From assembly GCF_001613545.1 (NCBI RefSeq), contig NZ_BDCO01000002.1:1488001-1552000 (forward strand): a DNA stretch of 64,000 nt, given 5' to 3'. Shown in pieces: positions 11,448 through 39,623 of this stretch; the first letter of the stretch is position 1; every line of letters starts with the position of its first letter. A program made the position numbers and the translations under genes. The notes beneath the pieces were generated by a model. It did not search any database and was not told the origin of the DNA. It worked only from the letters and a program-made list of their open reading frames with translations. The stretch comes from Terrimicrobium sacchariphilum (GTDB taxonomy: Bacteria; Verrucomicrobiota; Verrucomicrobiia; Chthoniobacterales; Terrimicrobiaceae).

Positions 11448-11527
11448 GGTTTCCGGAGCCTCGACCGCTTCCGTTGGCGCTCGGTCGATTGCCTTGAATT
11501 TCCCCTAATTTAAAATCACCCGATTCC

Positions 11528-11557
11528 CGAGCAAACGACATCCTTGCTCGTATTATA
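11528..11557 (-). promoter_or_regulatory. Putative promoter -10 box and operator
   Basis: On the minus strand a perfect TATAAT (complement of 11552-11557) lies just upstream of a perfect 7-base inverted repeat, CGAGCAA (11528-11534) and TTGCTCG (11544-11550) with a 9-base spacer. The position over the expected start site fits a repressor operator for the dehydrogenase gene, possibly for the adjacent LacI protein. No convincing -35 box is visible. Confidence 0.45.
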
Positions 11558-11590
11558 GAATGGCTCTGGATGGGCCTCGGTGGATGGGGT

Positions 11591-12616: not shown

Positions 12617-12671
12617 GCCGGGTGTCGTGAAAGGTGACTCTCGGAATCTTCTACATCCAGGAGCGCCCCCG

Positions 12672-12691
12672 CGCTAAACATAAAGTTAGCG
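12672..12691. promoter_or_regulatory. Inverted repeat upstream of the LacI-family gene
   Basis: Perfect 6-base arms CGCTAA and TTAGCG flank an 8-base AT-rich centre. It lies in the 80-base gap between the beta-helix gene stop and the LacI-family start, about 55 bases before that start. It could be an autoregulatory operator or a weak hairpin. There is no T-run, so I do not call it a terminator. Confidence 0.35.
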
Positions 12692-12696
12692 AGTGG

Positions 12697-19585: not shown

Positions 19586-20257
19586 CTATTGGCGCTTCGC
19601 GTCGGCGTCGATGCGATTCACGCGCTGCATGAGGCGGGCGAACCTGTCGTAGCGGCTTTGCATTGCCTCGGGAAGAGCCAGGGGAGCGGTGGGCGGGGCA
19701 GCGAAAGTGTAGCGCGTGTAGCTTGTGCCGTCATTGAGGGCGAAGGGCAGTTTGGACGTGATGTCGATCCACGCTTCTTTGCCGGACTGCGTGAAATAAT
19801 AGTAGGTGCCCTTTTCCACCGTGCGTGTGCCGGCGTAGTTCGACAGGCTCAGCCAGGAAAAGCCGGGAAACGCATTGAGAGACGAGGGTTCAAAACCGAC
19901 GTTGTCCATGAGGTCGCTGATGGCCACACGGCCATTCTCGCCTGTCGTGAAGAACAGGGTTCCCAGCATCCAGAGTTCCAGACTCTCGCCATTGGGGAAG
20001 GTTGACCGCTGGCGGCGGACTTCCTTGGTGCGCGTGGTCTGGATGATCGAGGGCTTGGGTGATTCCCCAGAGGCAGGGGGCCTGGAGTCGGTCTTTCCCT
20101 GGGTTGTGACGACAGTCCAGTCGGCGAACTCCGGGATCGGCGCGATGAATGGACTCGCGGGTGGTGGGACATCGATTCTGGCCTGCGCATGCCCGGGATG
20201 AGCAATAAGGCAGGATGCCAGGCTACAAAGAGTCAGAATACGGAATCCAAAGTTCAT
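19586..20257 (-). CDS. Secreted protein of unknown function after the Verru_Chthon A gene
   Basis: A 223-residue protein with a signal peptide (ILTLCSLASCLIAHPGHAQA) and a Pro-rich start (DVPPPASPFIAPIPEF). I recognise no family. Its ATG overlaps the stop of the cassette A gene by 4 bases, so it is translationally coupled to the pilin cassette. The middle part describes a compact globular domain (SLELWMLGTLFFTTGENGRVAISDL). A role in assembly or export with the cassette is inferred only from coupling. Confidence 0.7.
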   Translation of the reverse strand: MNFGFRILTLCSLASCLIAHPGHAQARIDVPPPASPFIAPIPEFADWTVVTTQGKTDSRPPASGESPKPSIIQTTRTKEVRRQRSTFPNGESLELWMLGTLFFTTGENGRVAISDLMDNVGFEPSSLNAFPGFSWLSLSNYAGTRTVEKGTYYYFTQSGKEAWIDITSKLPFALNDGTSYTRYTFAAPPTAPLALPEAMQSRYDRFARLMQRVNRIDADAKRQ

Positions 20258-23200
20258 TGATTAACCAACTCGAGTTGTTGATCGACGATTTCTCCGGTGA
20301 AGCGATCGATGGCGAGATGAAGCCAGAAGTGACGCTCACCCTCCACCGTAAACTGGTCCAGCGAGGTCGCATTCGGCCCGTAACGACCAGCCTGGGCAAA
20401 GATGTCGATGAGGAGATTCCAGGTGCGGACCTGGGTGACATCGGCCAGAGCCCGGGTGACGCCCTCGCGGCGGGCTTTAACCTTCTGCTCGTCGTTGGTG
20501 GAGAAATTGGCCGCGCCGAGCGACGCCACGATCTGGCTCACGATCTGGTCTTTGCTGTAGATCGCATTTGTCGCGGTCGACGCCACGATGCTGGACGCGA
20601 TGACATCGGCCTTGGCAAATGAAGAGAGGGTATTGATGTCGGGGATGGTGTTTTTCAACAAAGAGGAAAAGACCGCCGGATTGCGCGAGTTGATGCTCAC
20701 CTTTCCGACCGAGTAGGAGTTGGTCGTATTATCCACCGTGAAGAAATCAAGCAGGCTGGCATCCGCGCTCTTGTCGGAGAAGAAGTCGAGAGAGCGCCAG
20801 GCGTAATCCCGCGAGACATATCCCAGCTCCGCGACGCTGTAGTAGGGGCGGTTGAGGATGAATGGGCGGTCGGCCGTGCGGTCGGCCGAGGCGGCCCAGG
20901 GATCGCCCACCCAGCCATTGCCGTAAGCATTTTCGGTGAAGAGACCGCTGTCGGCGAGGCGCTGAACTCCGTCGGGGTCCTTGTAGCTGGCGAGGACCGG
21001 CTCGGTGCTTACCGCGGTGTTGACGTAATTTGTATTGTTGTTCCGGGCAATACCGGAGGGAAGCCACTGCCAGCCTACGGAGAAGATCTCCGGCGACTCC
21101 TGCGCGCCCTTCCAACCGTTGGGCATCCAGTATGGATCTGTCACAGAGGATTGGAGCGATCCCCGCAGATACGCATCCCAGGCCGCCTTGCTGTCTGTCG
21201 ACGTCTGGTGTTGGGTAAAGTTGAAGCGGATGGAGCGAGGGTCCTGAGCGTAATAGGAGTACCTTCGATAGTAGAAGATATTGTTATTCCCGTCGGCGAC
21301 GCCTGTATCCGGAGGGCTGAAGGGGACCGGGTCGGCGGCAGCGGCATTCGTCACTCCACTGACTCGGACGAAGCCGGGCCCCATGTATGCCGCGTATTGC
21401 AGGAAGGCCTTGGAATACTGTGTGGCGGGGTCATTCAGGCCGGCTTGATAGTTGTAGGCCACCCAGGCGCCGTTGGAGTTGAGATATTCGAGCCGGACGT
21501 TGAAAGGATCGGTTTTGTCAAACGACGGGCGAAACTGCAGGTTTTGCCATAAGCCAGCGTTAGGGTCCCCGACCGGCATGGTACGGGTGGGGTCGTAGGT
21601 AAAGTCGCGCAGCTTGAGGCCGCTATAGGTATTCCCGCGGACAGAGGGCATGCTTTGCCAGTCGGAGGCGGTTTTCAAATCCTGAGGATAGGTGACGTGG
21701 GGGTCGCGGAATCCGTATACTCCGTTCGTGCCGGAATCTTCCAGCTCCACAGTCGAGTCAAAGTAATTCGTATAGCCGGGCATGGCGGACCCGGCCGTGG
21801 TGGGCGTGGGATCGATCATGGTCGACATGTTGCCGTATTTGTTGCCGACAAGGGCCGAGCCCTGAACAACGATGCGCACCCGCGGACGGGAGGTTGTGTT
21901 GGTCGTGGCCTGATGAGGATTCCACAAGCTCAGCAGCAGGTAGTTGCCCATTACTCCCTGGGAGGCCTTGCCGCCGTAGATGGTGAAAAGGTTGAGATAG
22001 GGGAGATCATCCACACCGGCTGCCTGCCAGGGCGCTCCCGACTGGGTATACTCGACCACGACAGGGGCCGCGGAGCTTTCGTAGGAGGAAATGATGGATG
22101 CGCCAATACGGAAGATGTTGAAGGTCTTGAATGCCTGGTGCTTCGTGTAGAAGGCACGAGTGACCGTCGGGTTGCTGTCCAGACCGAGGGAACCCGTGAG
22201 GATCGCCGCCTGGAGGAGTTCAAAGAAGTTTGGCTCCCGGGGGGTGCTTTCCGCAGCGATCTGAGCCAGTGTCTTGATGGTGGTTTGTTCGGCAGTTCCG
22301 GTGGGACCCACGTATTTCCAGACCCCGGTGGTCTGGTCCCAGAGAAGGCCAAAGGCTGCTTGGATGCTTTGCGGTGTTCCGCCATTGGCGGGACCGTTGG
22401 GGGTGACCCACCTCAGACGATCCAGTGGGAAGCGGCGGGAGACCACTGGGTCGCCGGGCACGACATTGTAGGTGAACTTTGTTCCGTCCAGCTTGTACGA
22501 GGAGATGGTTCCTGTTTTGTCGAAGCGGACGAGAGGCGCAAAAGTATTGGTGGACGATGCGGTATTGGCCAGCAGCCCGTAGTTGATGGTACTGCCGGTC
22601 GGGGTGGTCGGGCGCCAGGACGGGGCGTTGAGTTCGCGACTGAAGACTGTGAGGTTCGTCAGGGAGTTGGTCGACAGCCCGGCGACATTGGCTTTGGCGG
22701 CGCGGATCAGATCCTGACGGCTGAGAAATGTCGTGTCTCCGGGATAGACGGAACCCGCGGAGTTGGTGCTGCGAAAGTTTGTGATCAGCGAGAGGTAGGT
22801 GCTGCCGCTGAGCGAGGACTCGGCATTTCTCCACTTCACGAGGGCATCGGCGTCGATGCCGAGCGCGCTCAGGTCCACACCCGCCAGAGTACCCTTGATT
22901 TTTTGCACATCGGCAGGGGTGAGCTTTCCACCGGGATATCCGGCAACGGTCACGTCGATCAGACCACCGACATCGTAGATGGCGTAGGCGAACCGACCGA
23001 TGGCGTAGTTGGTATTGGCCTGGCTCGGCGAGTTAAGTGCTGTGGCTCCGCTGAAGGTGCCGGCATTGGTGACTCCGCCGCGCGTGACGATCACCCAGCG
23101 GGGGGTGTCGTTATCCGTGGGGTAGCTCCCGAGGTAAGGGGCCTCCCAGCGGGCGCGTGCGACATAACGGCCATCAGCGGATTTTGTCGTGGAGCTGATG

Positions 23201-23622
23201 GACGAGGCGGTGAGGCCTTTCGCCGCGCCGTTCGTATAGGCCGAGGTGGTCGTGCTGACGCGCACGAGATTGGGCATGCTGGCGTTGGTGCCGACACGGC
23301 GGGGCTCGATGTTGCTCGCCGTGACATTGGTGAAGAGCGGCTTGTTGGTTGTCGAGGGTGGTTGACTGGGAAGGACCAGGCTCGGGGGCGCGTCGGCGGA
23401 CATTTCGTTGATGAGGTCGGCCGTGATGAGGCTCAGAGCACCCCGGGCGATCTCATCGGCATTGATTGACTGGCTGTAACTGGTCGAGGCCGTTCGCTCC
23501 AGGCGCATCGCAGTGACAAACGCGATCAGAATCAATGCGACAACGACGACCATCGACAGGACAACGACAAGGGCGATGCCCCGCTGGCGCAGGCGGGAGG
23601 GGGAACTACCGGAGAGGTACAT
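20254..23622 (-). CDS. Verru_Chthon cassette protein A (large GspK/PilX-like)
   Basis: About 1122 residues. A short basic leader RLRQRG precedes a hydrophobic helix IALVVVLSMVVVVALILIAFV, as in PilX/GspK-type minor pseudopilins, and a large Ser/Thr/Asn-rich extracellular region follows. Size, position and partners match what I recall as the Verru_Chthon cassette A family, seen in Verrucomicrobia and not functionally characterised. ATG 23622 gives a normal short leader; an in-frame start at 23658 would lengthen the overlap with the C gene. It probably forms the tip or a large surface component of a type II/IV-like pilus; this is inference. Confidence 0.82.
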   Translation of the reverse strand: MYLSGSSPSRLRQRGIALVVVLSMVVVVALILIAFVTAMRLERTASTSYSQSINADEIARGALSLITADLINEMSADAPPSLVLPSQPPSTTNKPLFTNVTASNIEPRRVGTNASMPNLVRVSTTTSAYTNGAAKGLTASSISSTTKSADGRYVARARWEAPYLGSYPTDNDTPRWVIVTRGGVTNAGTFSGATALNSPSQANTNYAIGRFAYAIYDVGGLIDVTVAGYPGGKLTPADVQKIKGTLAGVDLSALGIDADALVKWRNAESSLSGSTYLSLITNFRSTNSAGSVYPGDTTFLSRQDLIRAAKANVAGLSTNSLTNLTVFSRELNAPSWRPTTPTGSTINYGLLANTASSTNTFAPLVRFDKTGTISSYKLDGTKFTYNVVPGDPVVSRRFPLDRLRWVTPNGPANGGTPQSIQAAFGLLWDQTTGVWKYVGPTGTAEQTTIKTLAQIAAESTPREPNFFELLQAAILTGSLGLDSNPTVTRAFYTKHQAFKTFNIFRIGASIISSYESSAAPVVVEYTQSGAPWQAAGVDDLPYLNLFTIYGGKASQGVMGNYLLLSLWNPHQATTNTTSRPRVRIVVQGSALVGNKYGNMSTMIDPTPTTAGSAMPGYTNYFDSTVELEDSGTNGVYGFRDPHVTYPQDLKTASDWQSMPSVRGNTYSGLKLRDFTYDPTRTMPVGDPNAGLWQNLQFRPSFDKTDPFNVRLEYLNSNGAWVAYNYQAGLNDPATQYSKAFLQYAAYMGPGFVRVSGVTNAAAADPVPFSPPDTGVADGNNNIFYYRRYSYYAQDPRSIRFNFTQHQTSTDSKAAWDAYLRGSLQSSVTDPYWMPNGWKGAQESPEIFSVGWQWLPSGIARNNNTNYVNTAVSTEPVLASYKDPDGVQRLADSGLFTENAYGNGWVGDPWAASADRTADRPFILNRPYYSVAELGYVSRDYAWRSLDFFSDKSADASLLDFFTVDNTTNSYSVGKVSINSRNPAVFSSLLKNTIPDINTLSSFAKADVIASSIVASTATNAIYSKDQIVSQIVASLGAANFSTNDEQKVKARREGVTRALADVTQVRTWNLLIDIFAQAGRYGPNATSLDQFTVEGERHFWLHLAIDRFTGEIVDQQLELVNQ

Positions 23623-24373
23623 AACGCTCGAAGATTTTGATTCCGCGTCCCAGATCACGGGGATAGCTGTCCCAAGGCAGCTGGGAATCCATGTAGTGCT
23701 GCCAGTCGGCGCGAATGCTGTTCGTTCCGGAGACCTTGTCGTGGAGATCGGACTGGAGCTTCTGAAGCTGGGCGGCGGAGAGCTTTTCGAGGGTTCTCTG
23801 GTCGACCACGGCCAGGCCTACCGCAAAACCACGCAGACCATTGGTGACATTGTAGGTGGAGCTGAGCGACCCGTTGGTCCCGAGGAAGAGGACGCGGAAT
23901 CCCAAGACTCCCGAAACCGTGTCGCGTGCGACCGCATTAGCCGTCTCGGGAAGAGAATTGGTATTGCCGAAGGTAATGCCGGCGGTGTTGGCGAATGTGA
24001 CTGCATAATCCGCCCGCTGCAAGGTCGTGTCGGGCTGGAGACTGTAGGTCACCAGCGAGATGTCGCGCAGATTGGTTGCGCCCTTGGCGAACCCGGCGCG
24101 CTGGGTGTAAAGCGCGATATCGGAGTTGGGAAAGGAGCAGATGTCGCTGCGATAGACCCCCTTGCGGAGATCCTCGGAAAGGAGATCCAGGAGGACGCGC
24201 GACTTGGAGAAATTATCGACTCGCGCCTGGCCGCCGAGCCAGGTCGTATTCACGGTCGAGAACAACTGCCCCAGCATCAATGTCATCAAGGCCAGCACCG
24301 CGACGGCCACCAGCAACTCGATGAGGCTGAATCCTGCTGGACTAGCGGAGCGGCAGGTAGGTGAGCGTTTCAT
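23606..24373 (-). CDS. Verru_Chthon cassette protein C (prepilin-like)
   Basis: A 255-residue protein with a 14-residue leader and the classical prepilin site SPAGFSLIELLVAVAVLALM, cut by prepilin peptidase after Gly. The rest is a PilW/GspJ-like pseudopilin body (RVDNFSKSRVLLDLLSEDLRKG). It overlaps the B gene upstream by 32 bases and the A gene downstream by about 17 bases, so all are translated together. Confidence 0.83.
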   Translation of the reverse strand: MKRSPTCRSASPAGFSLIELLVAVAVLALMTLMLGQLFSTVNTTWLGGQARVDNFSKSRVLLDLLSEDLRKGVYRSDICSFPNSDIALYTQRAGFAKGATNLRDISLVTYSLQPDTTLQRADYAVTFANTAGITFGNTNSLPETANAVARDTVSGVLGFRVLFLGTNGSLSSTYNVTNGLRGFAVGLAVVDQRTLEKLSAAQLQKLQSDLHDKVSGTNSIRADWQHYMDSQLPWDSYPRDLGRGIKIFERYVPLR

Positions 24374-24827
24374 AACTGCCTTGGGAGTTGGCGCGGGCGG
24401 CCTGGGGCGGCCAGCTTAACGATAGGAAGATCTGGGAAGCGTAGGGTCCGGTGGTGGTGTTTGTACCGGCGGAACAGGTGATGCGATAGAGCGCATCTGC
24501 AACGTTGCTGGTGATGCGCCCGTCTTCTCCGACGTAGACATTGGATGAGGCAAAGGCGTTTCCGTAGGATTGTGACAACGCCGAGGCCGGAATGGCAAAA
24601 TTGGTATTGGTCAGGGACGAGGCTCGCTGGGCAATGAGGAGCGACGCCATGTTGGCGGCTTGCAGCCGGGCCTCGGACTCCCGGGCCGAGGTGAGGCCGA
24701 CCTGGAAGAGGCCGATCATCGCGACCAGGACAAAGGCGCAAATCCCGAGCGCGAGGACGACCTCGACAAGGGAAAATGCGGCATCAGTGTCACGGACGAT
24801 AGACGCGTGTTTGTCCGGTGAGGCCAT
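24342..24827 (-). CDS. Verru_Chthon cassette protein B (prepilin-like)
   Basis: About 161 residues. A leader ending in RDTDAA precedes the prepilin helix FSLVEVVLALGICAFVLVAM, with Glu at position +5 as in type IV pilins, so it resembles PilV/GspI minor pseudopilins. I chose ATG 24827 because it gives a leader of normal length; the open frame extends to 24935 but would overlap the D gene by nearly 150 bases. Its end overlaps the C gene. Confidence 0.8.
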   Translation of the reverse strand: MASPDKHASIVRDTDAAFSLVEVVLALGICAFVLVAMIGLFQVGLTSARESEARLQAANMASLLIAQRASSLTNTNFAIPASALSQSYGNAFASSNVYVGEDGRITSNVADALYRITCSAGTNTTTGPYASQIFLSLSWPPQAARANSQGSYETLTYLPLR

Positions 24828-25530
24828 TGATCCGAAGGACGGCAATGTTGTTTTGATCAGCGACTGATCCTCGCATCGAGCGGACTCCCATCTCGATGAT
24901 GTCGATCGGGCTGTCTGCCACCCTGGCTTCCCCATCTGGCAAAAATTGGATGACGCGATCGAAGCTCACATTGCTCGAGGTCCCCGGCAGGCGCACGGAG
25001 AAGGTTACGCTGCCATCGGCCGGGCTGTTGTCCGAGCCGATCAGCGGCTGAGCCGGCAGGTCGGAGATATTCTGGCGCGTGAAAGTGCCCGCCTCCTCGA
25101 GACGCACCTGCTTGAGCGTCTTTGGACGAATGAGGAGAGAAATGGTGTCGCTTGGCACCGTACCCTGAGCCGCCCAGGGAGAGGAGGGTTGCATCCCAGT
25201 CTTCGATGCCAGGAGGGCGACGTCGATGGAGGGTTCCCGGGGATCGTCGTTGTTTTCCCGCATGGCCACCCAGACGTACGTGCGCTGGGCCACGGCATAT
25301 TGGCGTGCCTGGGAGAGCAGTCCGGCGAGTTCGCTCAATGATCCGTTCAGGTTGTTGGAACGACTCAGCGAGGAAATGGCGGGCAGGCTGGCTCCGGCAA
25401 GGATGGCCACGATCGCCATCACGGTGAGCAACTCGATCAGCGTGAATGCCGCGCGTTTGCTTGTGGTCGACGTTGTGGGGAAACGGTTCATCGGTGATTG
25501 ATTTTCAGGGGGTGACATCTGCGGAATCAT
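24790..25530 (-). CDS. Verru_Chthon cassette protein D (prepilin-like)
   Basis: Up to 246 residues with the prepilin signal KRAAFTLIELLTVMAIVAIL, cut between Ala and Phe, and a GspH/FimT-like body (SLSELAGLLSQARQYAVAQRTYV). It is the first gene of the leftward cassette. Three in-frame ATGs (25530, 25518, 25491) are possible; 25491 gives the shortest leader, and no strong ribosome site decides between them. Upstream lies a 268-base AT-richer intergenic region facing the esterase gene at 25799, with no further gene seen in it. Confidence 0.82.
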   Translation of the reverse strand: MIPQMSPPENQSPMNRFPTTSTTSKRAAFTLIELLTVMAIVAILAGASLPAISSLSRSNNLNGSLSELAGLLSQARQYAVAQRTYVWVAMRENNDDPREPSIDVALLASKTGMQPSSPWAAQGTVPSDTISLLIRPKTLKQVRLEEAGTFTRQNISDLPAQPLIGSDNSPADGSVTFSVRLPGTSSNVSFDRVIQFLPDGEARVADSPIDIIEMGVRSMRGSVADQNNIAVLRINGLTGQTRVYRP

Positions 25531-25798: not shown

Positions 25799-27169
25799 AT
25801 GAAATCCCTCCGTTGTTGCGCAACTATTGCGTTGATTCTGATGTCCGGTCTGGCGGCCTCTCCCGAGGCACGAGCGGATGACGCAGTAGCTCTCTCGATC
25901 ATGCCCGACCATAAAGACGGACTGTATTCCTCGGGGGATACCGTCACGTGGACGATCGACCTGGCCGATCCGAAAGCCGACCGGACAAAGGTCGGTTTGC
26001 TCGATTACACGGTTAAAAAAGACGGAGACGGGGTGGTGACAAAGGGACAGATCGACCTGAGTAACGGACCTGCCACGGTCACGGGAAGCAGGACGGAGCC
26101 GGGTGCGTTGGTGCTCAACGTGACGAAACCGGGGGGCAATGGACTGCCGATCGGTGTCGGCGGAGGAATGTTCGATTGGCAAAAGGTGAGGCTTTCCCAG
26201 CCCGCCCCGGCGGATTTTGATCAATTCTGGGGAGACAAACTGAAAGAACTCGCCGCGGTGCCGGTGAATCCGGTGCTGCAAAAAGTGGACGTGCCCAACG
26301 CGGCGGGGACCGACTACTACAAGGTCACACTCGACAACATCCGGGGCACGCACGTCCAAGGGCAACTGGCCCGGCCGACGGCTGGGGAGAAATTTCCCGC
26401 GGTCCTAATCCTGCAATTCGCCGGAGTCTACCCCCTCAAGAAGGACGAGGTGACCAACAGGGCGGCCAAGGGCTGGCTCGCGCTCAACATCAGCGCCCAC
26501 GACCTCCCGATCGACGAGCCCGAGGACTTTTACAAACAGAAGAAGGACGGAGATCTGAAAAACTACGTCTACCTGGGTAGCGAGGATCGCGAGCAGTCCT
26601 ATTTTCTCCGCATGCTGCTTGGCTGTGTCCGTGCGGCGGAGTATCTCGCCTCGCGTCCCGATTGGGATGGAAAGACGCTCATTGTGACGGGAACCTCGCA
26701 GGGTGGGTTACAGGGCTTTGCCACCGCGGCACTGTTCCCCAAAGCCTCCGGGTTGATGGTCAACGTGCCGGCCGGTTGCGACGTCTATGGGCCAAAGGCT
26801 AATCCCGCCCGTGCCTTTGGCTGGCCGTACTGGCTTTCCAACTGGGGGCCGCGCGATCGCGATTTGAACAAGGTGAGCACGACCGCGGGATATTTTGACG
26901 CAGCCTATTTCGCCGAGCGGGTGAAATGCCCTTCTCTTGTCTCGGTGGGACTGATCGACGACACGTCGCGTCCATTTGGTGTCATTGCCGCGTTCAACGC
27001 AATCCAGGCTCCCAAGGAACTCATCCTCATGACGCGATCCAATCACCACGGCACGGGAGGAGCCCAGGGGCTTTACTTTGTGGAGAACGCGAACTGGCTG
27101 GCGGCCCTCCAGCAGGGCAGGCCGCTTCCGATTGCCGCAGAAGGGTTCCTGATCGATCCGTTTAAGTAA
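25799..27169 (+). CDS. Secreted acetylxylan esterase-like (CE7/AXE1) hydrolase, second copy
   Basis: About 456 residues; paralogue of the 17344-18738 protein with the same plan: signal peptide (CCATIALILMSGLAASPEARA), N-terminal beta-sandwich and AXE1-like alpha/beta hydrolase. The nucleophile elbow is GTSQGGLQG; the likely acid is in GLIDDTSRPFG and the His in SNHHGTGG. ATG 25799 places the signal peptide at the N-terminus, whereas the open frame reaches back to 25730. It converges with modB over 7 bases. It shares no operon with the other glycan genes. Confidence 0.8.
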   Translation: MKSLRCCATIALILMSGLAASPEARADDAVALSIMPDHKDGLYSSGDTVTWTIDLADPKADRTKVGLLDYTVKKDGDGVVTKGQIDLSNGPATVTGSRTEPGALVLNVTKPGGNGLPIGVGGGMFDWQKVRLSQPAPADFDQFWGDKLKELAAVPVNPVLQKVDVPNAAGTDYYKVTLDNIRGTHVQGQLARPTAGEKFPAVLILQFAGVYPLKKDEVTNRAAKGWLALNISAHDLPIDEPEDFYKQKKDGDLKNYVYLGSEDREQSYFLRMLLGCVRAAEYLASRPDWDGKTLIVTGTSQGGLQGFATAALFPKASGLMVNVPAGCDVYGPKANPARAFGWPYWLSNWGPRDRDLNKVSTTAGYFDAAYFAERVKCPSLVSVGLIDDTSRPFGVIAAFNAIQAPKELILMTRSNHHGTGGAQGLYFVENANWLAALQQGRPLPIAAEGFLIDPFK

Positions 27170-27176
27170 GGACGGA

Positions 27177-27842
27177 TTACCTGCGTAACGGCACTCTGGC
27201 AGATTGAGGGAGTCGGACAATGAAAAGGACGGCAACCGAGATCATCAGGGTCACGAGGGCGAGAAGGCCTGCCTGATAGATCTCGCCGCTCTCGACGTGA
27301 AAGAAGATCGCGAGCGGAATTGTCTGGGTGCGACCGGGAATGCTGCCTGCGAGCATGAGGGTCGCGCCAAACTCCCCCAGCGCCCGGACGAAGCTCAGGA
27401 TGGTGCCGACCAGAATGCCTGGCCACGCGAGGGCGAGCATCACGCGCCAGAGGAGTTGCCATTCGTTCATGCCATAGAGCCGCCCCACGTCGAGGAGTTC
27501 CGTGTCGATTTGCTGAAAGGCGGCGTAGGCCGACTGGTACATCAGTGGAAAAGACGCCACCACGGCGGTAATGACCGTGGCCTGCCAGGAGAAGATCACG
27601 TCGATGCCGATATCGGACAGCAATGTGCCGACGGGCGAGTTGCGACCGAAGAAGAGAAGCAAGGCGAGGCCGATCACTGTGGGCGGAAGCGCCAGCGGAA
27701 GGAGCAGCATGGCATCCACGAGGCCGACCCAATGACCTCGCGCCCCGAACCTCCAGCGTGCAGCAAGGATGCCGAGTATGAAAGTGATGACCGTCGCGGT
27801 CACAGTCGTCTTCAGGCTCAACCAGATCGGCGTGGTATCCAT
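27177..27842 (-). CDS. modB: Molybdate ABC transporter permease
   Basis: A 221-residue inner-membrane permease with five or six transmembrane segments. It carries the ModB/CysT-type cytoplasmic EAA loop, seen here as DVGRLYGMNEWQLLWRVMLALAWPGI, and the family signature RALGEFGATLMLAGSIPGRTQT. It pairs with ModA, whose stop overlaps its start by one base (TGATG). It is the last gene of the leftward operon: no ModC ATPase follows, and the next gene is convergent, so the ATPase must be encoded elsewhere. Confidence 0.93.
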   Translation of the reverse strand: MDTTPIWLSLKTTVTATVITFILGILAARWRFGARGHWVGLVDAMLLLPLALPPTVIGLALLLFFGRNSPVGTLLSDIGIDVIFSWQATVITAVVASFPLMYQSAYAAFQQIDTELLDVGRLYGMNEWQLLWRVMLALAWPGILVGTILSFVRALGEFGATLMLAGSIPGRTQTIPLAIFFHVESGEIYQAGLLALVTLMISVAVLFIVRLPQSARVPLRR

Positions 27843-28612
27843 CAGGGCTTGGCTAGTACCTCAAAACCTCGCTTGGCAAAAAGCTCGGAAGCTTGAGGGG
27901 ATTTCAGGAAATCGAGATAGGTCCGGGCGGCGGCAGGCTGACGAGCGGCTTTGATGATGGCGGCAGGGTAAACGACTGGATCGTGGGAACCGGCGGGCGC
28001 CTCGGCGAGGATGGCGACCTTGCCGGATTGCTTCGCGTCCGTCATGTAAACCACGCCTGCGTCGACATTCCCCGTTTCTGCATATGTCAGGACCATTCGG
28101 ACATCCTTGGCAAAAATCAGCCTCGGCTTCACAACGTCCGCGATTTTGTAGAAGGCAAATATCTGCTGGGCGTACTGCCCGGCAGGCACGCTGCCGGGTT
28201 CGCCAATGGCGATGCGTTTTACCGAGGCATCGGCCAGCGCGGCAAAGTCAGCGGGGGCTGTGGCCCCTGGAGGACCGACCAGCACGACCTTGTTGCCGAG
28301 GAGATTGAAGACCGACCCCTCCAGGAGCAATCCCTTGGAGGCAAGAGCGTCCATCTGCCGGGTCGCGGCGGAAATGAAGACGTCGACGGGCGCGCCCTGC
28401 TCGATCTGCTGCTGGAGGGCTCCGGAGCCAGCGAGATTCAGGTCGATGGCGATGCCGGGATTTTTTTCGGCGAAGGCGGCGTTCACGTCGGCCAGGGCTT
28501 CTTTCAAACTGGCCGCAGCGGAAACCACAATGGTCTGGCCCGAGACTGGCGTGAGCGCGATGAGCAGGGTGAGGGCGCTGCCGAGGAGCAGCTTGGCGAG
28601 GTGGCGATGCAT
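27842..28612 (-). CDS. modA: Molybdate ABC transporter substrate-binding protein
   Basis: A 256-residue periplasmic binding protein with a signal peptide ending near SGQ. ModA signatures are clear: VSAAASLKEALADVNAAF, NLAGSGALQQQIEQGAPVDVF, IAIGEPGSVPAGQYA and a late DAGVVYMTDA. It binds molybdate or tungstate and delivers it to ModB. ATG 28612 was chosen because the signal peptide begins there; the longer open frame to 28804 lies inside the preceding gene. A 4-base gap separates it from the TupA-like gene. Confidence 0.93.
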   Translation of the reverse strand: MHRHLAKLLLGSALTLLIALTPVSGQTIVVSAAASLKEALADVNAAFAEKNPGIAIDLNLAGSGALQQQIEQGAPVDVFISAATRQMDALASKGLLLEGSVFNLLGNKVVLVGPPGATAPADFAALADASVKRIAIGEPGSVPAGQYAQQIFAFYKIADVVKPRLIFAKDVRMVLTYAETGNVDAGVVYMTDAKQSGKVAILAEAPAGSHDPVVYPAAIIKAARQPAAARTYLDFLKSPQASELFAKRGFEVLAKP

Positions 28613-28616
28613 GGGT

Positions 28617-29495
28617 TTATCCTTTTGGGTGTTCGAAAGATACGGGCTCAATGGGGTAGAAGATGGGCGCGTTGCCGCCTTGGCGTTCTGAGAATCGGCT
28701 GAGTGTGAGTTGACCAGAGGGAGAGGTGAGGAACTCCGAGAGTCTTCTGGCGCCCTCGGGGTTGCGGCCGAGCCTGCGGGCGAGATTTGCCTCGATGACA
28801 ACATACGGTCTCCGCATTTCCGGGTCTCCCTCCACCATGATCTCCATGCCTGCGTTTGGAATTTTTCCGCTGAGCATGGGAATGCGTCCGACGATCACGT
28901 AGGCATGACGCTCCGCCGCAAACTCCACCACGCGTTGCGGTACCGGGCTGTCGTCGCGGATGATCCAGTCGCCCTCAGGGCGAATCTCGGCGAGCTTCCA
29001 CAGGCGGGCGCCTACCGTCTGGCTGCCCACGTTCCGGGCCTCGACAAAGGGAGCCTTGGCCGCAGCGATCCGGGTCACGGCTTCTGCTCCGCTCTTGAGG
29101 CCGCGAATCTTCGCCGGATCATCGGGAGGGCCGACTATGACCAACTCGTTGCGCGCCCAGGGTTTCATGGAAACACCGAGGCCATCAGCGACAAGGTTGG
29201 TGGCCACATCGCTGGAGTGAAGAGTGATGAGGTCGATGCCTCCTTTGCGAAACGCCTTGTCGATAATCTCCTTTGGGCCCGTGCTTACGACTTCCACGGG
29301 GATGCCTGTCTGTCGCGTGAACTCCGCAGTGACTTCCTCCCACATGCCTGTGGTCATGAAGCCGCCGATGATGGCGACTTTTACCGGTGCGTTGGATGCA
29401 GTGGGCGTGCGCTGGCACGAGGCGAAAAGAAGCAGGATCGATGCCGCCAGAAAGACAGCAGACAACGAGCGATATCGACGATGGGAAATGATCAT
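28617..29495 (-). CDS. TupA-like tungstate/molybdate-binding lipoprotein
   Basis: A 292-residue substrate-binding protein with a lipoprotein signal (ILLLFASC, lipid-modified Cys expected). The body resembles the TupA/tungstate-binding family: the TTGMWEEVTAEFTRQTGIPVE opening, GGIDLITLHS, NELVIVGPPDDPAKIRG and the late repeat AYVIVGRIPMLSG. It is distinct from the ModA that follows, so the operon encodes two different oxyanion-binding proteins for one permease. Its ATG overlaps the preceding gene's stop by 4 bases. Whether it favours tungstate is inferred, not shown. Confidence 0.78.
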   Translation of the reverse strand: MIISHRRYRSLSAVFLAASILLLFASCQRTPTASNAPVKVAIIGGFMTTGMWEEVTAEFTRQTGIPVEVVSTGPKEIIDKAFRKGGIDLITLHSSDVATNLVADGLGVSMKPWARNELVIVGPPDDPAKIRGLKSGAEAVTRIAAAKAPFVEARNVGSQTVGARLWKLAEIRPEGDWIIRDDSPVPQRVVEFAAERHAYVIVGRIPMLSGKIPNAGMEIMVEGDPEMRRPYVVIEANLARRLGRNPEGARRLSEFLTSPSGQLTLSRFSERQGGNAPIFYPIEPVSFEHPKG

Positions 29496-31018
29496 AGGTT
29501 GGGCTTCCATGTATCGCCGGGGATTTCGGTCTTCCATCGGACATCGGGCTGGGAAAGATCCCCCGTGCCACAGCCGAGATACGTTCCGGTGAACCGCTGG
29601 ACGTGACCATCGAGGAAGACGACATTCGCGCCACCCGAGTGTCGGGGAACGACCGAATATTCGCTGCGCGAGGGAACCGTGGAGGCATAGCCGCCGGGCG
29701 AATCGGCCAGAAAGGCGAGACTCGACGGGCGGGGCAACTGAACGACACGGCTCGCGTCCCGCTGGTCCCAGCGGGAGAGATACATGTTCATTCCATAGCT
29801 GATGAAGTGCACGCAGTCCTCGGGAATCTTCGCTCCAGGGCAGAGAAATATGCTGCGGAGTCCTGGCCTGGGAGCCTGCCCATGGGCGTAAAGCTCCTTG
29901 TATGGACTCATCTCCAGGTAGGGCGGAAGACAGTTGAACCAATCTTCATCGCGGTCGATTACTGTCACAGGGCGCACTCCCTGGCCCCGCCGGGGTAGGA
30001 AACCGTCGTGGTCCTGGATGTAGAGTTGCAATGCCACGCCCCACTGCTGGAGGTGGCCGACACACTCCGCGCCTCGCGCTTTTTCTATCCCGGTATTGAC
30101 CCAGTTGGTGGTGACACTGGCTGCAATGGCGACGAGGCTGATGGCGACGAGAACCTCAGGCAGAGTGAATGCCGCACGGCGTATCCGCCTTCCGACGATA
30201 ATCAGGCCACCCAGCGCGGCGAAGCCGAGGACCGATGGCTCCGGTATGGCGGTGATGATGATCTTTGGTTCGTTATCATGCCCGTAGCGGCTGGAGCTGA
30301 AGAGGTAGTCAATATTGTCGTCTCCGGCGTACATCAAAAAAGAGATAGCGCCCCCGGCGGTCACGTCGGAGACGAGGTTGTCCGTTAGGGGCAGATTCCA
30401 GGTGAGGCGAATGCCGTTTCCCGGGGGATCGTATGTGTATGAACCCAGCACCTCGTGCTCGCTCGTCAGCAGCGTGGAGAGGGAGTCATAAGTGACACCG
30501 TCCTGCGTCGGACTGCTGGGACTTCCGGAACCTTGCTCCCAGTCGTCATCGGAAAGCCATTCGATGACAAACTTCCCTCCCTGGATCATGCCAAAGATCG
30601 GGTTGTTGGGGATCGACCCGGCTTCGGCCCAGTTGCTGGCAAAGCTCAATGATATGGAAGTAACAAACCAGTGCCCCGCGCCATAGGTGGCATCGAAAAG
30701 CGTGATCGCCCCGGCGGAGCTGAACATGATCACGCTTTGAAACTCGCCCTTTCTGATCGTACGACCGGAGGCAGGATCAACGTAAGAAGAGTTGCCCGAT
30801 GCGATTACGAGCGTTCCGGCATCACCGTAGTTCCAATCGGTCAGGTCGTGATCGACATTGTCTCCTCCAGTATTCGGATTATCCGGCGAGCCAGTGGCAA
30901 GGAAGGCGTCATTACTTGAGATGACCGAGTAGACCGTAGGCTCGACCGCACGTGATAGCACGGTCAGGCCTGCGAAACCGGCCAGCAGGAAAAGCCTGAT
31001 CCAGCCGGCGGCCTTCAT
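29492..31018 (-). CDS. PEP-CTERM protein fused to pseudopilin/H-X9-DG protein
   Basis: A 508-residue single open frame with two normally separate proteins. Residues 1-24 are a signal peptide; about 25-257 a beta-rich domain related to the upstream PEP-CTERM protein (shared pattern YGxGxWxVxxxxLSF). PEP at 259-261, a hydrophobic stretch and the basic cluster RRIRR (277-281) form a PEP-CTERM sorting tail. Immediately after comes a prepilin-type site, AAFTLPEVLVAISLVAIAASV (282 onward, without the usual Gly), a GspG-like helix and an H-X9-DG body (PRHSGGANVVFLDGHV). Overlaps at both ends (ATGA) couple it to the mod operon. A sequencing frameshift joining two genes is possible. Confidence 0.8.
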   Translation of the reverse strand: MKAAGWIRLFLLAGFAGLTVLSRAVEPTVYSVISSNDAFLATGSPDNPNTGGDNVDHDLTDWNYGDAGTLVIASGNSSYVDPASGRTIRKGEFQSVIMFSSAGAITLFDATYGAGHWFVTSISLSFASNWAEAGSIPNNPIFGMIQGGKFVIEWLSDDDWEQGSGSPSSPTQDGVTYDSLSTLLTSEHEVLGSYTYDPPGNGIRLTWNLPLTDNLVSDVTAGGAISFLMYAGDDNIDYLFSSSRYGHDNEPKIIITAIPEPSVLGFAALGGLIIVGRRIRRAAFTLPEVLVAISLVAIAASVTTNWVNTGIEKARGAECVGHLQQWGVALQLYIQDHDGFLPRRGQGVRPVTVIDRDEDWFNCLPPYLEMSPYKELYAHGQAPRPGLRSIFLCPGAKIPEDCVHFISYGMNMYLSRWDQRDASRVVQLPRPSSLAFLADSPGGYASTVPSRSEYSVVPRHSGGANVVFLDGHVQRFTGTYLGCGTGDLSQPDVRWKTEIPGDTWKPNL

Positions 31019-32004
31019 TGGGCGGAGGTGTCTGGGCCGGCGGCGATGCTCCGGCGGCTCCGCCAGAGCAGGACGCCCGATCCTGCACCGAGCAGAATCA
31101 GCGTACTGGCTCCGGGCTCGGGAACCGATACCACATCAAAAGTCAGCGTAGGAAGAGATGTGCCTCCACCGGTAAAAATGGTGATACCCATCGTATCACT
31201 CGTGGACATGAGGTAGAGCGAGATATTGGAATCTCCCGAGGAACTGGCGGTTAGGATGTCGCCGAGGAACGAGGCGTTGCTCCCGAGGTCGTAGCTGAGG
31301 GTAGACTGGCGGGTGCCGCTTGAATCCGTACTCCACTTGCCGGATGTGAGGTCGGCCGCCGTTCCCGTGTACCCCGGAGTCGTCCAATCGTAGTATTCCG
31401 AGGCAAGCAGCGCCTGTCCGCCGGACCAGTTTGAGAGTCCTGCGGCATTCGTCGCATACGCAGGGTTCGTGTTCGGGGTGGTTGAATTGACTTTATCAAG
31501 ATCGATCTGCGCCCAGGAATCATTCGCAACCCAATAGATGTCAAATGTGCCAGCTCCGGAGTTGAACCGGGTATTGTTGGAATAGAGCGTGTATTGGAAA
31601 GACAGCTTCACATTGGAGACCGCCCAGTTTCCCGGGCCGTAGACGCTATTGAGCGAGTCGACAAATGAACCAATGTTGAACTTGAATGCGACATTGGCGG
31701 CGAGCGCAGATCCGCCTCCAGACTTGAGGCTCGCGGAGCCTTGCACTCCCTCGGCTCCACCGGCCCAGGAAGTGCCGTTACTCATGATCATGCAACTTGT
31801 TTCCTTTGCTGCGGGGGAATTTCCCGACCCGCTGACGATGCTGAAGCTTCCCGAGGTGAGAACCGTTGCACCAGCGGCGAGCGGAAGACCGATCGTCGCG
31901 ATGAGAATTGCCATTCGGCGGGCGACGTTCCGTGCAAAAAGAATTGACCGACATCCTCCGGCCGTCTGGCCGGACCCTGCATGTTTTAGGTTGTTTGGCA
32001 GCAT
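31015..32004 (-). CDS. PEP-CTERM sorting-domain protein, first gene of the mod operon
   Basis: Up to 329 residues: a signal peptide (MAILIATIGLPLAAGATV), a beta-rich Ser/Gly-rich exported domain and a C-terminal PEP-CTERM tail, SVPEPGASTLILLGAGSGVLL followed by WRSRR. Exosortase is expected to cut and anchor such proteins at the envelope. The start may be ATG 31914, where the signal peptide begins, rather than 32004. It is paralogous to the N-terminal half of the next gene, whose ATG overlaps its stop. It is the first gene of an operon that continues into molybdate transport; its function is unknown. Confidence 0.8.
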   Translation of the reverse strand: MLPNNLKHAGSGQTAGGCRSILFARNVARRMAILIATIGLPLAAGATVLTSGSFSIVSGSGNSPAAKETSCMIMSNGTSWAGGAEGVQGSASLKSGGGSALAANVAFKFNIGSFVDSLNSVYGPGNWAVSNVKLSFQYTLYSNNTRFNSGAGTFDIYWVANDSWAQIDLDKVNSTTPNTNPAYATNAAGLSNWSGGQALLASEYYDWTTPGYTGTAADLTSGKWSTDSSGTRQSTLSYDLGSNASFLGDILTASSSGDSNISLYLMSTSDTMGITIFTGGGTSLPTLTFDVVSVPEPGASTLILLGAGSGVLLWRSRRSIAAGPDTSAQ

Positions 32005-32008
32005 TTAA

Positions 32009-32113
32009 GCGCTCTGGGAGAAACTGCTGTATTGCAGCGCATTCCAGTGCGCGGAACCTCCGCGCCTACCCAAAACAACCCGGCAGCCCTTCTTGCGCTT
32101 TCCGGAAAAGAAG
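32009..32113 (-). ncRNA. Potentially structured leader of the PEP-CTERM/mod operon
   Basis: Several stems can form in this short stretch upstream of the leftward operon: CTTCTT/AAGAAG (32089-32094 and 32108-32113) around a TTCCGGAA palindrome; a perfect 7-base stem GCGCGGA/TCCGCGC with a 3-base loop (32049-32065); GCTG/CAGC (32026-32038); and GCGCT/AGCGC (32009-32013 and 32036-32040), which competes with the last one. Mutually exclusive stems before a metal-oxyanion operon suggest a riboswitch or attenuator. I cannot match it to the known Moco RNA motif. Confidence 0.35.
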
Positions 32114-32162
32114 AAAATCTAATAGATGAAAATATGTAAACAATTTTTTACAAAAACTACTT

Positions 32163-32194
32163 TTAGTGAATCTATATCAGTCAATATTAGTGAA
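32163..32194. promoter_or_regulatory. Direct repeat in divergent promoter region
   Basis: The 8-mer TTAGTGAA occurs at 32163-32170 and 32187-32194, 24 bases apart, in the AT-rich region (about 32115-32200) between the mod operon and its divergent regulator. Between the copies lies an imperfect palindrome CTATAT...ATATTAG. This is a plausible binding site for the regulator at 32245. No exact ModE-box was seen. Confidence 0.4.
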
Positions 32195-32244
32195 ATGCGT
32201 CAACGGTGCTTGACGCGGTGGACGGCATCCGGGAGCATTTTCTC

Positions 32245-33354
32245 ATGCTAGACGGGCTCGATGGAGCGGGAGAACGCATCGTTCAGTTGCGGGCGAGGCG
32301 AAATCTGACCCAGGCGGGGCTGGCTCGCGCTGCGGGAATCACCCGGCAGTCGCTGAACCAGATCGAGCGCAATCAGGTGATCCCTCGAGTCGACACGGCG
32401 CTGCGTTTGGCGCGTGCTCTCGAGTGCCCGATCGAGAGCCTGTTCGGGCCTCGCGAGGAACCCGCCGTGCTCCCGGTGCATCTGGTAGGCAATACTCCGC
32501 AAGAGGGCATGCGGCTCGATCTCGCTCAACTGGACGGGCGCTGGATCGCCGGGGAGTCCGACCTCCTGGCCAAGATGGGGGCAGGACTGGCGATGGCGGA
32601 TGCCGTGTTCCGTCACACCCCGACCGGACCGTCGGCAGAGACGAGTCTGGACTTGTCCGATCTCGCCGAAAATCTCTTCGTGGCGGGCTGCGATCCCGCA
32701 TTGGCGCTGCTTTGCGAGTCGGCTTCCCGACATTCCATCAAGGGGCGTTGTGTGTGGATTCCCTGCGGTAGCGCCGTGGCTCTGCGCCGCCTGGCGGAGG
32801 GCGAGGTGCATCTGGCCGGAATTCATTTCGGCGAGGACGATGAGGCCAATCTCGAAGGCGTGAAGCGCCTCGGGCTTCTCAAGAGCTGTCTCGTCATGCG
32901 CTTCACACGATGGGAGCAGGGCTGGATGGTCGGACGTGATTTCTCCTTCCAGGGTTTTGCCGATCTGCCGGGGGGACGCATCCGCCTGGCCAATCGGGAG
33001 AAAGGCTCGGGATGCCGGAACCAGTTGGAGGAAATGATGCAACTGAGCGGAGTCGTCGCCAACGAGATTGCGGGATACGATTCCGTGACCGTGAGCCATT
33101 CGGATTGCGCCCGGCGAATCGCGGCGGGCCTCGCCGATGTGGGGCTGGGGTGCGAATCCATTGCGAGGGTCTACGGGCTGCGATTTATCCCGCTCTCGCA
33201 GGTGGCATTTGACCTCGTCATCCGGCGCGATCAACTCGGCAAGCCCCTTCTCGAGGCGCTCATCGATCATCTCGCCATTGGCAAGTTTGTCCGCTCGATC
33301 TCGCAAATCCCTGGCTATGAAACAGGTGAGACCGGGCGCGTGCTTACTCCATGA
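32245..33354 (+). CDS. XRE-type regulator with PBP-like domain, probable molybdate-responsive
   Basis: About 369 residues. The N-terminal Cro/C1-type helix-turn-helix is clear (LRARRNLTQAGLARAAGITRQ, then SLNQIERNQVIPRVDTALRLA). The rest (about residues 90-350) resembles the periplasmic-binding-protein-like domain found in some XRE regulators and at the end of some MoeA proteins (NREKGSGCRNQLEE, DSVTVSHSDCARRIAAGLAD). Such domains are thought to sense molybdate or a cofactor. It is divergent from the mod operon and directly upstream of nifA, so it may link metal supply to both. ATG 32245 was chosen; GTG 32206 would add 13 residues. Confidence 0.82.
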   Translation: MLDGLDGAGERIVQLRARRNLTQAGLARAAGITRQSLNQIERNQVIPRVDTALRLARALECPIESLFGPREEPAVLPVHLVGNTPQEGMRLDLAQLDGRWIAGESDLLAKMGAGLAMADAVFRHTPTGPSAETSLDLSDLAENLFVAGCDPALALLCESASRHSIKGRCVWIPCGSAVALRRLAEGEVHLAGIHFGEDDEANLEGVKRLGLLKSCLVMRFTRWEQGWMVGRDFSFQGFADLPGGRIRLANREKGSGCRNQLEEMMQLSGVVANEIAGYDSVTVSHSDCARRIAAGLADVGLGCESIARVYGLRFIPLSQVAFDLVIRRDQLGKPLLEALIDHLAIGKFVRSISQIPGYETGETGRVLTP

Positions 33355-37955: not shown

Positions 37956-39623
37956 ATGTCGACCGAAGCAACGATCCCGACAGGAACCATCGAAGAAGTC
38001 GAGGGCGTAACGCCTGACGCTCTGCGCGAGCAGATGCTCAAGGGCCTGCCCTCGAAGACCCTGCGCAAACGCGCAAAGCAGATCGTGCCGAACGATCCCG
38101 AGACGCCGCCGGAAATCGGTGCGAACTCCCGCACCATCCCGGGCATCATCACCCAGCGCGGGTGTACGTATGCGGGCTGCCGGGGCGTTGTCATCGGTCC
38201 CATCCACGACATCCTGCACATCACCCACGGCCCCGTGGGCTGCGGGTACTACTCGTGGATGACGCGGCGCAACCTGGCCCGCGTGCCGGAGGGTCAGACG
38301 AACTACATGCAATACTGCATGACCACGGACATGCAGGAGGACCACATCGTCTTCGGCGGCGAGAAGCGCCTGGCCGAGGCGATCCGCGAGGCCTACCGGC
38401 TCTTCAAGCCCAAGGCCATCTCGGTCTACGCCACGTGCCCGGTCGGCCTCATCGGCGATGACATTCACAGTGTCTGCCGCCAGGCCAAGGAAGAGCTCGG
38501 CATCAATGTCTTTGGCTTCTCCTGCGAAGGGTACAAGGGGGTCAGTCAATCCGCCGGCCACCACATCGCGAACAACGGTGTGTTCAAGCACATGATCGGC
38601 CTCGACGACACGCCGAACGACGCCAAGTACAAGATCAACATCCTTGGCGAGTACAACATCGGCGGTGATGCCTGGGCGATCGATGAGCTGCTCAAGAAGT
38701 GCGGCATCACGATCCTCGCCACCCTCAGCGGCGGCGTGTCCTACGACGAAATCATCAACTGCCACCAGGCGGATCTCAACGTGGTCATGTGCCACCGTTC
38801 GATCAACTACATGGCGGAGATGATGGAGACGAAGTTCGGCATCCCGTGGTTCAAGGTGAACTTCATCGGCGCCGACTCGACCGCCAAGTCGCTTCGCAAG
38901 ATCGCGAAGTACTTTGACGACAAGGAACTCATGGACAGGGTCGAGGAGGTCATCGCGGCGGAACTCGCCGTGCTGCGCCCGATCCAGGCCGAGATCAAGG
39001 CCAAGCACCAGGGCAAGAAGGCCGCCATCTTTGTCGGAGGTTCTCGCGCCCACCACTACCAGGATCTCTTTGGCGATATCGGCATCGAGACGGTCTCCGC
39101 GGGTTATGAGTTCGCTCACCGTGATGACTACGAGGGTCGCGACGTGCTGCCCAACATCAAGATCGACGCCGACAGCCGCAACATCGAGGAACTGGACGTC
39201 GAGCCCGATGAAACCCGCTTCCGCCCGCGCATTTCGCCCGAGGCGAAGCAAAAGCTCATCGACGCCGGTTTCGCCTTCTCCGATTACCTCGGAATGATGC
39301 GCGAGATGAAGAAGCGCGCGCTCGTCATCGACGACATCAGCCATCACGAGCTGGAGCACCTGATCAAGACCTGGAAGCCCGACATCATCGGCTCCGGCAT
39401 CAAGGACAAGTTCATCATTGAAAAGATGGGCGTGCCCTGCAAGCAGCTCCACTCCTACGACTACGGTGGACCTTACGCGTCCTTCGCGGGTGCGATCAAC
39501 TTTTACAAGGAGATCGACCGCATGCTCTCGACCAAGGTGTGGAGCTACGTCGTGCCGCCCTGGGTCAAGGATCGCAAGGCCGCAGCCCCGGAGGCTCCGG
39601 CAGAGGAACAAAAGGCCGCCTGA
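37956..39623 (+). CDS. nifD: Nitrogenase molybdenum-iron protein alpha chain
   Basis: A 555-residue alpha subunit of the MoFe protein, the site of N2 reduction. P-cluster cysteines lie in GCTYAGCRGV, GPVGCGYYSW and YATCPVGLIGDD. The FeMo-cofactor ligands are the Cys in VVMCHRS and the His in LHSYDYGGPY, and GVSQSAGHHIANN carries the conserved active-site His. Compared with the short Azotobacter-type subunit it has the roughly 50-residue insertion (around GYEFAHRDDYEGRDVLPNIK) seen in Clostridium/Desulfovibrio-like enzymes. No delta-subunit (vnfG/anfG) gene lies between nifD and nifK, which supports a Mo enzyme. Confidence 0.97.
   Translation: MSTEATIPTGTIEEVEGVTPDALREQMLKGLPSKTLRKRAKQIVPNDPETPPEIGANSRTIPGIITQRGCTYAGCRGVVIGPIHDILHITHGPVGCGYYSWMTRRNLARVPEGQTNYMQYCMTTDMQEDHIVFGGEKRLAEAIREAYRLFKPKAISVYATCPVGLIGDDIHSVCRQAKEELGINVFGFSCEGYKGVSQSAGHHIANNGVFKHMIGLDDTPNDAKYKINILGEYNIGGDAWAIDELLKKCGITILATLSGGVSYDEIINCHQADLNVVMCHRSINYMAEMMETKFGIPWFKVNFIGADSTAKSLRKIAKYFDDKELMDRVEEVIAAELAVLRPIQAEIKAKHQGKKAAIFVGGSRAHHYQDLFGDIGIETVSAGYEFAHRDDYEGRDVLPNIKIDADSRNIEELDVEPDETRFRPRISPEAKQKLIDAGFAFSDYLGMMREMKKRALVIDDISHHELEHLIKTWKPDIIGSGIKDKFIIEKMGVPCKQLHSYDYGGPYASFAGAINFYKEIDRMLSTKVWSYVVPPWVKDRKAAAPEAPAEEQKAA

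Follow-up and report, generated by a model that had tools for sequence, protein, structure and literature searches.

A putative molybdate/tungstate-type acquisition cassette with a cell-surface part in Terrimicrobium sacchariphilum and related Verrucomicrobiota

We analysed a 64,000-nt stretch (the window; G000:C2:1488001-1552000) of the 4.75-Mb genome of Terrimicrobium sacchariphilum (G000) and describe a minus-strand operon that joins predicted surface proteins to binding and transport proteins of metal-oxyanion type. This gene set and its counterparts in other genomes are referred to below as the cassette. Five genes are packed between 32004 and 27177, and their coordinates agree with the initial annotation, which reported five leftward genes that overlap by 1-4 bases or lie 4 bases apart. 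The first gene, PEP1 (31015..32004), encodes a PEP-CTERM protein. The second (29492..31018) encodes a fusion of a distantly related PEP2 domain to a pseudopilin and overlaps PEP1 by 4 bases (ATGA). The third, for a TupA-like substrate-binding protein (28617..29495), overlaps the second in the same manner (ATGA, 4 bases). The gene for ModA (27842..28612) follows after a 4-base gap, and that for ModB (27177..27842) overlaps it by a single base (TGATG). Promoter-like matches are absent from positions 26900-32400, where 1.6 are expected. Terminator-like matches in the same interval number 10 on both strands combined versus 4.8 +/- 1.9 expected; six are on the operon strand, all of them inside coding sequence.

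Two PEP-CTERM proteins had been proposed at this locus. The assignment stands for PEP1, which carries a C-terminal PF07589 match of 23.0 bits (cut-off 20.7), but the corresponding stretch of gene 2 scores 15.7 bits, below the cut-off, and is internal (residues 257-281 of 508). Apart from its tail PEP1 has one sub-cut-off Pfam match, no NCBIfam match and no match in plasmid records; the gene is kept in two congeners and in another genus, and its product is about 26% identical to the PEP2 family (tblastn). PEP2 corresponds to residues 1-280 of gene 2, including the internal PEP-CTERM-like stretch. A confident structure model built from 27 sequences (mean predicted local distance difference test score, pLDDT, 88; predicted template modelling score 0.82) gives PEP2 a CBM96-like fold. 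Its closest counterpart in the PDB is the chondroitin sulfate-binding module 8wab (Z 19.4, root-mean-square deviation 2.8 over 170), followed by the alginate-binding module 7vbo (Z 16.9, deviation 3.4 over 171), with the next row at Z 10.1. Both are CBM96 modules, and a ligand cannot be inferred from the shared fold. Neither PEP1 nor PEP2 itself matches Pfam CBM96 at E 0.1, and two of six surface proteins scanned from other loci exceed the CBM96 cut-off. An exosortase, which the initial annotation had recommended looking for, is encoded in the genome (PF09721, 153.1 bits; TIGR02602, 128.4 bits versus a cut-off of 105.55), next to genes that we read from their translations as glycosyltransferase-like. 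All seven cassette genomes tested contain an exosortase.

The remainder of gene 2 (approximately residues 278-508) is a pseudopilin, which confirms the fusion recognised earlier. N_methyl scores 21.3 bits (cut-off 21.2) at an internal position owing to the fusion, H-X9-DG scores 27.1 bits (cut-off 19), and DUF1559 is also above its cut-off.

The third gene had been called a TupA-like lipoprotein. Distant homology to TupA was borne out, as its family profile matches the solved TupA-type structures 3lr1 (E 6e-36) and 5my5, and the protein scores 50 bits against SBP_bac_11. However, it is no canonical TupA (42.9 bits against tung_bind_TupA, NF041772, with a cut-off of 400), and its lipobox was seen by eye only. 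No TupB or TupC was found beside it. In an unrooted tree the TupA-like subfamily forms a clade separate from six canonical TupA rows, with 100/100 support. All six canonical rows contain the stretch LATTTST, in which TTTS is presumably the TupA ligand motif, versus an IGG stretch at this place in all 29 subfamily rows. Alignment A10 omits L086 and L092, which are short.

The assignments of ModA and ModB proved sound, both proteins scoring above curated cut-offs (ModA, TIGR01256, 186.8 bits versus 62.5; ModB, TIGR02141, 222.9 bits versus 182.6). Of seven ModB matches in the T. sacchariphilum genome, that of the operon is the only one to pass.

Related loci were sought with the TupA-like protein alone, by running a seven-sequence profile against a collection of one genome per species (84,980 species). 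The search returned 28 loci, or 29 with the window: 20 in Verrucomicrobiota, one in a Planctomycetaceae metagenome-assembled genome, and eight in Campylobacterota or in metagenome-assembled genomes titled Deltaproteobacteria, which carry Myxococcota labels in the tree. Locus lengths range from 4.4 to 20.9 kb, and absences weigh less than presences. Six places bear two identifiers (L014, L016, L018, L055, L056 and L064 are L066, L067, L077, L080, L069 and L070, respectively), and each was counted once. The carriers include Chthoniobacter flavus Ellin428 and Spartobacteria strain LR76, both of which are in culture.

The constant core of these verrucomicrobial loci is a surface protein, a pseudopilin and the TupA-like protein. 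In all 20, the pseudopilin gene immediately precedes the TupA-like gene in the same orientation, with -16 to +25 bases between its stop and the TupA-like start judged most plausible, and the motifs PRRGQG, DWFN and YxMNMxL are invariant in all 20 aligned cassette pseudopilins. Profiles place a PEP1/PEP2-family gene next to this pair, before or after it on the same strand, at 19 of the 20 loci. At the twentieth (L070) the adjacent gene encodes a CBM96 protein (29.8 bits, cut-off 26) with a PEP-CTERM-like tail of 16.5 bits, below the 20.7 cut-off. By eye, a PEP-CTERM tail is present in 17 of the 20 cassettes. The surface-protein alignment (A7) comprises 29 stretches minus L073:8443-9327, L078:1186-1647, L083:183-1136 and L093:11510-12502; some of its rows are incomplete or extend upstream beyond the likely start. 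As a control, six canonical TupA loci were inspected: none has a cassette-type pseudopilin or PEP gene beside TupA (one, L113, is only 3.9 kb long), and five have a ModB/TupB-like gene there.

Two congeners keep the whole arrangement in order, with 66-92% protein identity and adjoining nif genes. A member of another genus in the same family (G005) encodes PEP1, a separate pseudopilin, the TupA-like protein, ModA and ModB in this order, with 47-60% identity. The PEP1 of G005 (L018, 7731-8846, minus strand) carries a further PEP-CTERM-like stretch close to the N-terminus, which resembles the remnant of a second PEP gene. The PEP2/pseudopilin fusion and the exact five-gene order occur only in the window and the two congeners.

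The cassette is rare, because the TupA-like profile matches 7 of 197 genomes in the order, and because in a phylum sample its 7 matches among 387 genomes are the T. sacchariphilum genome and six canonical TupA, which puts the cassette at 1 of 387. The pseudopilin profile matches five genomes of this phylum sample, T. sacchariphilum and four others (E 2.9e-38 to 3.9e-31). The four others were rejected as cassettes, as they have no PRRGQG where this region is visible and no TupA-like neighbour. Within the order, 31 of 197 genomes are listed for the PEP1 profile, many by the tail alone; beside the four known, three with broader matches were followed. The PEP domain family alone was rejected as a cassette marker, since the 16 kb fetched from G043 (L054) contain a PEP2-like gene but neither a pseudopilin nor a TupA-like gene.

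The association of surface proteins with metal-oxyanion uptake genes, put forward from a single sequence, is thus seen as a conserved unit across Verrucomicrobiota, together with one of two types of regulator described below. The co-occurrence with modA and modB that the initial annotation proposed to look for is less uniform: the core is found at 20 of 20 loci, but ModA and ModB together at nine, five of which also encode a ModC-like ATPase. Molybdenum-cofactor genes lie near L055 (Chthoniobacter flavus; MoeA-like and MoaE-like) and L093 (MoaB-like, above one cut-off, and MoeA-like). A permease gene of the TauE/SafE family overlaps the TupA-like gene in L056/L069 (L056 10867-11256) and lies near it in L078 (8-796). 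This permease sits where no ModB was found and is a candidate alternative oxyanion permease. At L079 an alginate-export-family outer-membrane protein (11317-13125) is encoded between the cassette and ModA.

In the window a regulator with HTH_3 and PBP_like (PF12727) domains is encoded divergently from the operon (32206..33354, plus strand). Between it and PEP1 lies the palindrome TGTAAA-N6-TTTACA (32135..32152, no strand assigned), a candidate operator that occurs once in the window versus 0.00 matches expected. Both congeners retain the arms, and the spacer varies. By eye, no inverted repeat of simple type recurs in ten other loci with HTH/PBP_like regulators. A regulator is present near 19 of the 20 verrucomicrobial loci, of the HTH/PBP_like type in 13 and ModE-like in six, never both. 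Among the former, only the HTH part was matched in L069, the gene is downstream on the other strand in L068, and the frame is split by a stop in L084. One of the six ModE-like proteins (L078) is narrowly above the Pfam HTH_1 cut-off.

The 121-nt 5' leader of the operon (32005..32125, minus strand) is highly conserved, being 97.5% and 95.0% identical in the two congeners versus 76-84% for six genes compared, and its sequence has one match in the genome. Rfam returned nothing at gathering score for the leader and two matches at chance level (E 2.1 and 6.6). Its folding z of -1.45 is not exceptional, and none of 39 pairs covaries in an alignment of three sequences only. A molybdenum-cofactor riboswitch, which was considered, is not supported by these results. 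The leader may be a cis-regulatory RNA or a DNA-level signal. Rfam applied to eight other loci yielded one tRNA only.

All eight loci that lie outside Verrucomicrobiota and Planctomycetota have a TonB-dependent receptor beside their member of the TupA-like subfamily; three of them (L086, L087 and L088) were run against Pfam. The receptor gene is directly upstream on the same strand in L087-L092 (in two frames in L087); in L082 and L086 it is on the opposite strand, separated from the TupA-like gene by one open frame. L088 also encodes TonB, ModD, an OprD-like porin, and ModE-, ModA-, ModB- and ModC-like proteins. Searches of the 20 verrucomicrobial loci with two of the eight receptors detected no such gene, and five of seven cassette genomes tested, T. 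sacchariphilum included, contain no Plug-domain match. The Planctomycetaceae locus (L085) has a PEP-CTERM protein and a pseudopilin-like gene on the opposite strand. In the unrooted tree the receptor loci form two separate clades, each with 100/100 support, and the outer partner has therefore changed at least twice (with the Planctomycetaceae row grouped with the eight receptor rows); the direction is not given by the tree. The pseudopilin/TupA-like pair kept at all 20 verrucomicrobial loci, taken with the outer-membrane receptor found beside this binding protein in other lineages, suggests a shared ligand-capture step.

Beyond the divergent regulator lie genes for a NifA-like activator and a DraG-like protein, then nifH, nifD, nifK, nifE, nifN, nifB and nifV; the gene between the first two is presumably draT. 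NifA, NifN, NifV and DraG score below curated cut-offs, and the remaining nif proteins scanned score above. NifD (37956-39623) has 555 residues, of which residues 24-536 cover a 466-position model, suggesting an insertion of some tens of residues. It had been suggested that the operon supplies this nearby nitrogenase. Nif genes do adjoin it, but with NifH, NifD and NifA as queries they were detected in the fetched flanks of only 4 of the 20 verrucomicrobial loci, so the link is local. These are the window, L066 and L067, all of one genus, and L068, making two lineages; in L068 NifE is above its cut-off, and NifK/NifN-like and NifV-like proteins are below theirs. Because of this limited distribution, nitrogenase would be one customer and not the general purpose of the cassette, and the window cassette probably feeds nitrogenase among other molybdenum enzymes. 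On the 3' side the operon is followed by a convergent acetyl-xylan-esterase-like gene and a Verru_Chthon-type pseudopilin cassette of overlapping pseudopilin-like genes (20254-25530, minus strand), in which types D and C are recognised below cut-offs and the other two are named by position. This second cassette is kept in both congeners. The 40 kb fetched from G005 contain no match to it, and no nif gene was found there.

We consider it rather probable, from the sequence relationships and gene neighbourhoods described above, that this operon forms an acquisition cassette of molybdate/tungstate type, one part of which is dedicated to the cell surface. This surface module for molybdate or tungstate uptake would be independent of TonB, and we infer that it captures or retains the ligand at the surface. 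Under molybdenum or tungsten shortage, the PEP-CTERM proteins would undergo export, and the exosortase would sort them to the outer surface or to surface polysaccharide, where their CBM96-like domains could hold the assembly in place or bind organic matter that carries molybdenum. The pseudopilin may join a type II secretion or pilus-like machine, which would bring either the TupA-like protein or the PEP proteins to the surface or carry the ligand inward. The TupA-like protein would then hand the ion or ion complex to ModA and ModB, with import energised by an ATPase encoded elsewhere. In this scheme the surface module would stand in for the TonB-dependent receptor with which the binding protein is paired in Campylobacterota and Myxococcota. 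A more specific version, to which we give tentative credence, is a TonB-independent surface machine in which exosortase-sorted CBM96-like proteins catch or hold molybdate, tungstate or their organic complexes within the polysaccharide of the surface and a dedicated PRRGQG pseudopilin brings either the ligand or the TupA-like protein through the outer membrane, the whole being interchangeable with a TonB-dependent receptor and the partner having changed at least two times.

Several observations weigh against an acquisition cassette of this kind. The operon contains no modC, and none of 62 matches in the T. sacchariphilum genome passes the ModC cut-off. (A small protein of this genome, L022 9372-9719, minus strand, resembles the C-terminus of ModC, of Mop/TOBE type in our reading.) ModA and ModB together are missing from the flanks examined at 11 of the 20 loci, two of which have ModA alone, and three genomes (G041, G128 and G139) have no ModB match above cut-off anywhere. 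Because LATTTST of canonical TupA is missing from the subfamily, the TupA-like protein may bind something other than tungstate or molybdate. By eye, no lipobox cysteine is present in the TupA-like proteins of L073, L079, L080, L083 and L084, and the surface proteins of L072, L076 and L081 have no PEP-CTERM tail. The structure model of the pseudopilin is weak (pLDDT 71), does not allow a pocket to be read and has no PDB match at E <= 0.001. At L077 a nearby regulator was not detected. The five ModE-like proteins that were scanned reach 63-81 bits against the ModE repressor domain, below the cut-off of 98.5, and the tentative link of the HTH/PBP_like regulators to molybdate draws on a sub-cut-off match to the C-terminal part of a MoeA-type model and on gene context. 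Finally, Plug-domain matches do occur in two cassette genomes, two in G128 and one in G139. The initial annotation would have given up the association had the PEP-CTERM genes turned up elsewhere without mod genes. They do so as a broad family (L054) and, in part, as cassettes (the same 11 loci), but the core and its regulators stay together.

Other explanations differ in how they fare against these data. The pseudopilin may be a secretion adaptor. If it were specific for one substrate, the PEP proteins could be biofilm or surface proteins that are induced by molybdenum shortage and alter attachment, and do not handle metal. In favour, PEP2 has a CBM96-like fold, which is suggestive of glycan binding, two of the six other surface proteins scanned pass the CBM96 cut-off, and the exosortase gene adjoins glycosyltransferase-like genes. 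A link between PEP-CTERM and exopolysaccharide has been published (PMC1569441). However, an attachment role accounts less readily for a pseudopilin/TupA-like pair that is kept at 20 of 20 loci, or for the outer-membrane receptor beside the same binding protein at eight of eight loci elsewhere, and we regard it as unlikely. A different ligand, such as a molybdenum chelate, vanadate, another oxyanion or an organic compound, with ModA and ModB as add-ons in some lineages, would fit a TupA-like protein that lacks LATTTST and scores far below the TupA cut-off. It would also fit the pairing of this subfamily with TonB-dependent receptors, whose ligands are usually large or chelated, the 11 loci whose examined flanks lack ModA and ModB, and the TauE-family permease that overlaps the TupA-like gene in L056/L069 and is near it in L078. 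It is harder to reconcile with ModE-like or HTH/PBP_like regulators at 19 of 20 loci and with molybdenum-cofactor or ModABC-like genes beside several cassettes, and we judge it improbable.

A surface operon that merely happens to precede mod genes in one genus would explain why the exact five-gene order, with the fusion followed by ModA and ModB, is confined to the window and two congeners. Yet the G005 genus keeps PEP1, pseudopilin, TupA-like protein, ModA and ModB at 47-60% identity, the core recurs at all 20 verrucomicrobial loci, and none of six canonical TupA loci has such genes; chance proximity is accordingly given almost no weight.

How metals cross the outer membrane of Gram-negative bacteria that lack TonB-dependent receptors is, to our knowledge, an open question. 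The cassette is a concrete and testable candidate for such a receptor-free crossing of scarce metals. If the acquisition reading is right, two large and largely unexplained families, the H-X9-DG/DUF1559 pseudopilins and the PEP-CTERM proteins, would gain a possible function. In one planctomycete, DUF1559 proteins form a group of 68 paralogues whose function is unknown (PMC10632474). The cassette may also bear on the molybdenum supply of soil nitrogen fixers. The titles and abstract openings that made up our literature search contain no description of it.

The cassette can be compared with several known systems. Its ModA and ModB are above the cut-offs of the ModABC importer families, but the cassette differs from ModABC by the absence of ModC from the operon and by the surface genes and additional binding protein encoded upstream. 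The family of gene 3 likewise matches the TupA-type structures 3lr1 and 5my5, but gene 3 itself departs from the TupABC importer in its score (42.9 versus 400 bits), its separate clade and the lack of TupB or TupC beside it. Sulfuricurvum and its relatives (L088 and others) share the TupA-like subfamily, in L088 together with ModD and ModE-, ModA-, ModB- and ModC-like genes. There the outer-membrane step is served by a TonB-dependent receptor, in contrast to the PEP-CTERM proteins and pseudopilin of the cassette. In Caulobacter, the surface lipoprotein ElpS is made in phosphate starvation, and its gene lies next to those for a TonB-dependent receptor and type II secretion (PMC2996285). Compared by description, the likeness lies in a surface lipoprotein that answers nutrient shortage and is encoded near secretion genes, whereas the nutrient is phosphate and a full type II secretion gene set is present (PMC2996285). 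A precedent for a PEP-CTERM exoprotein tied to a metal, again compared by description, is ZepA, which mediates zinc uptake. Present in a small proportion of genomes from distant phyla, including the PVC superphylum, it has genes for metal transporters, TonB-dependent transporters and regulators in its neighbourhoods (PMC10957091). It differs in its metal, zinc, and its regulator, Zur, and the passages that deal with ZepA mention no pseudopilin or TupA-like protein (PMC10957091). Set beside these systems, the cassette looks like a so far undescribed variant of surface-assisted metal uptake, which is itself known.

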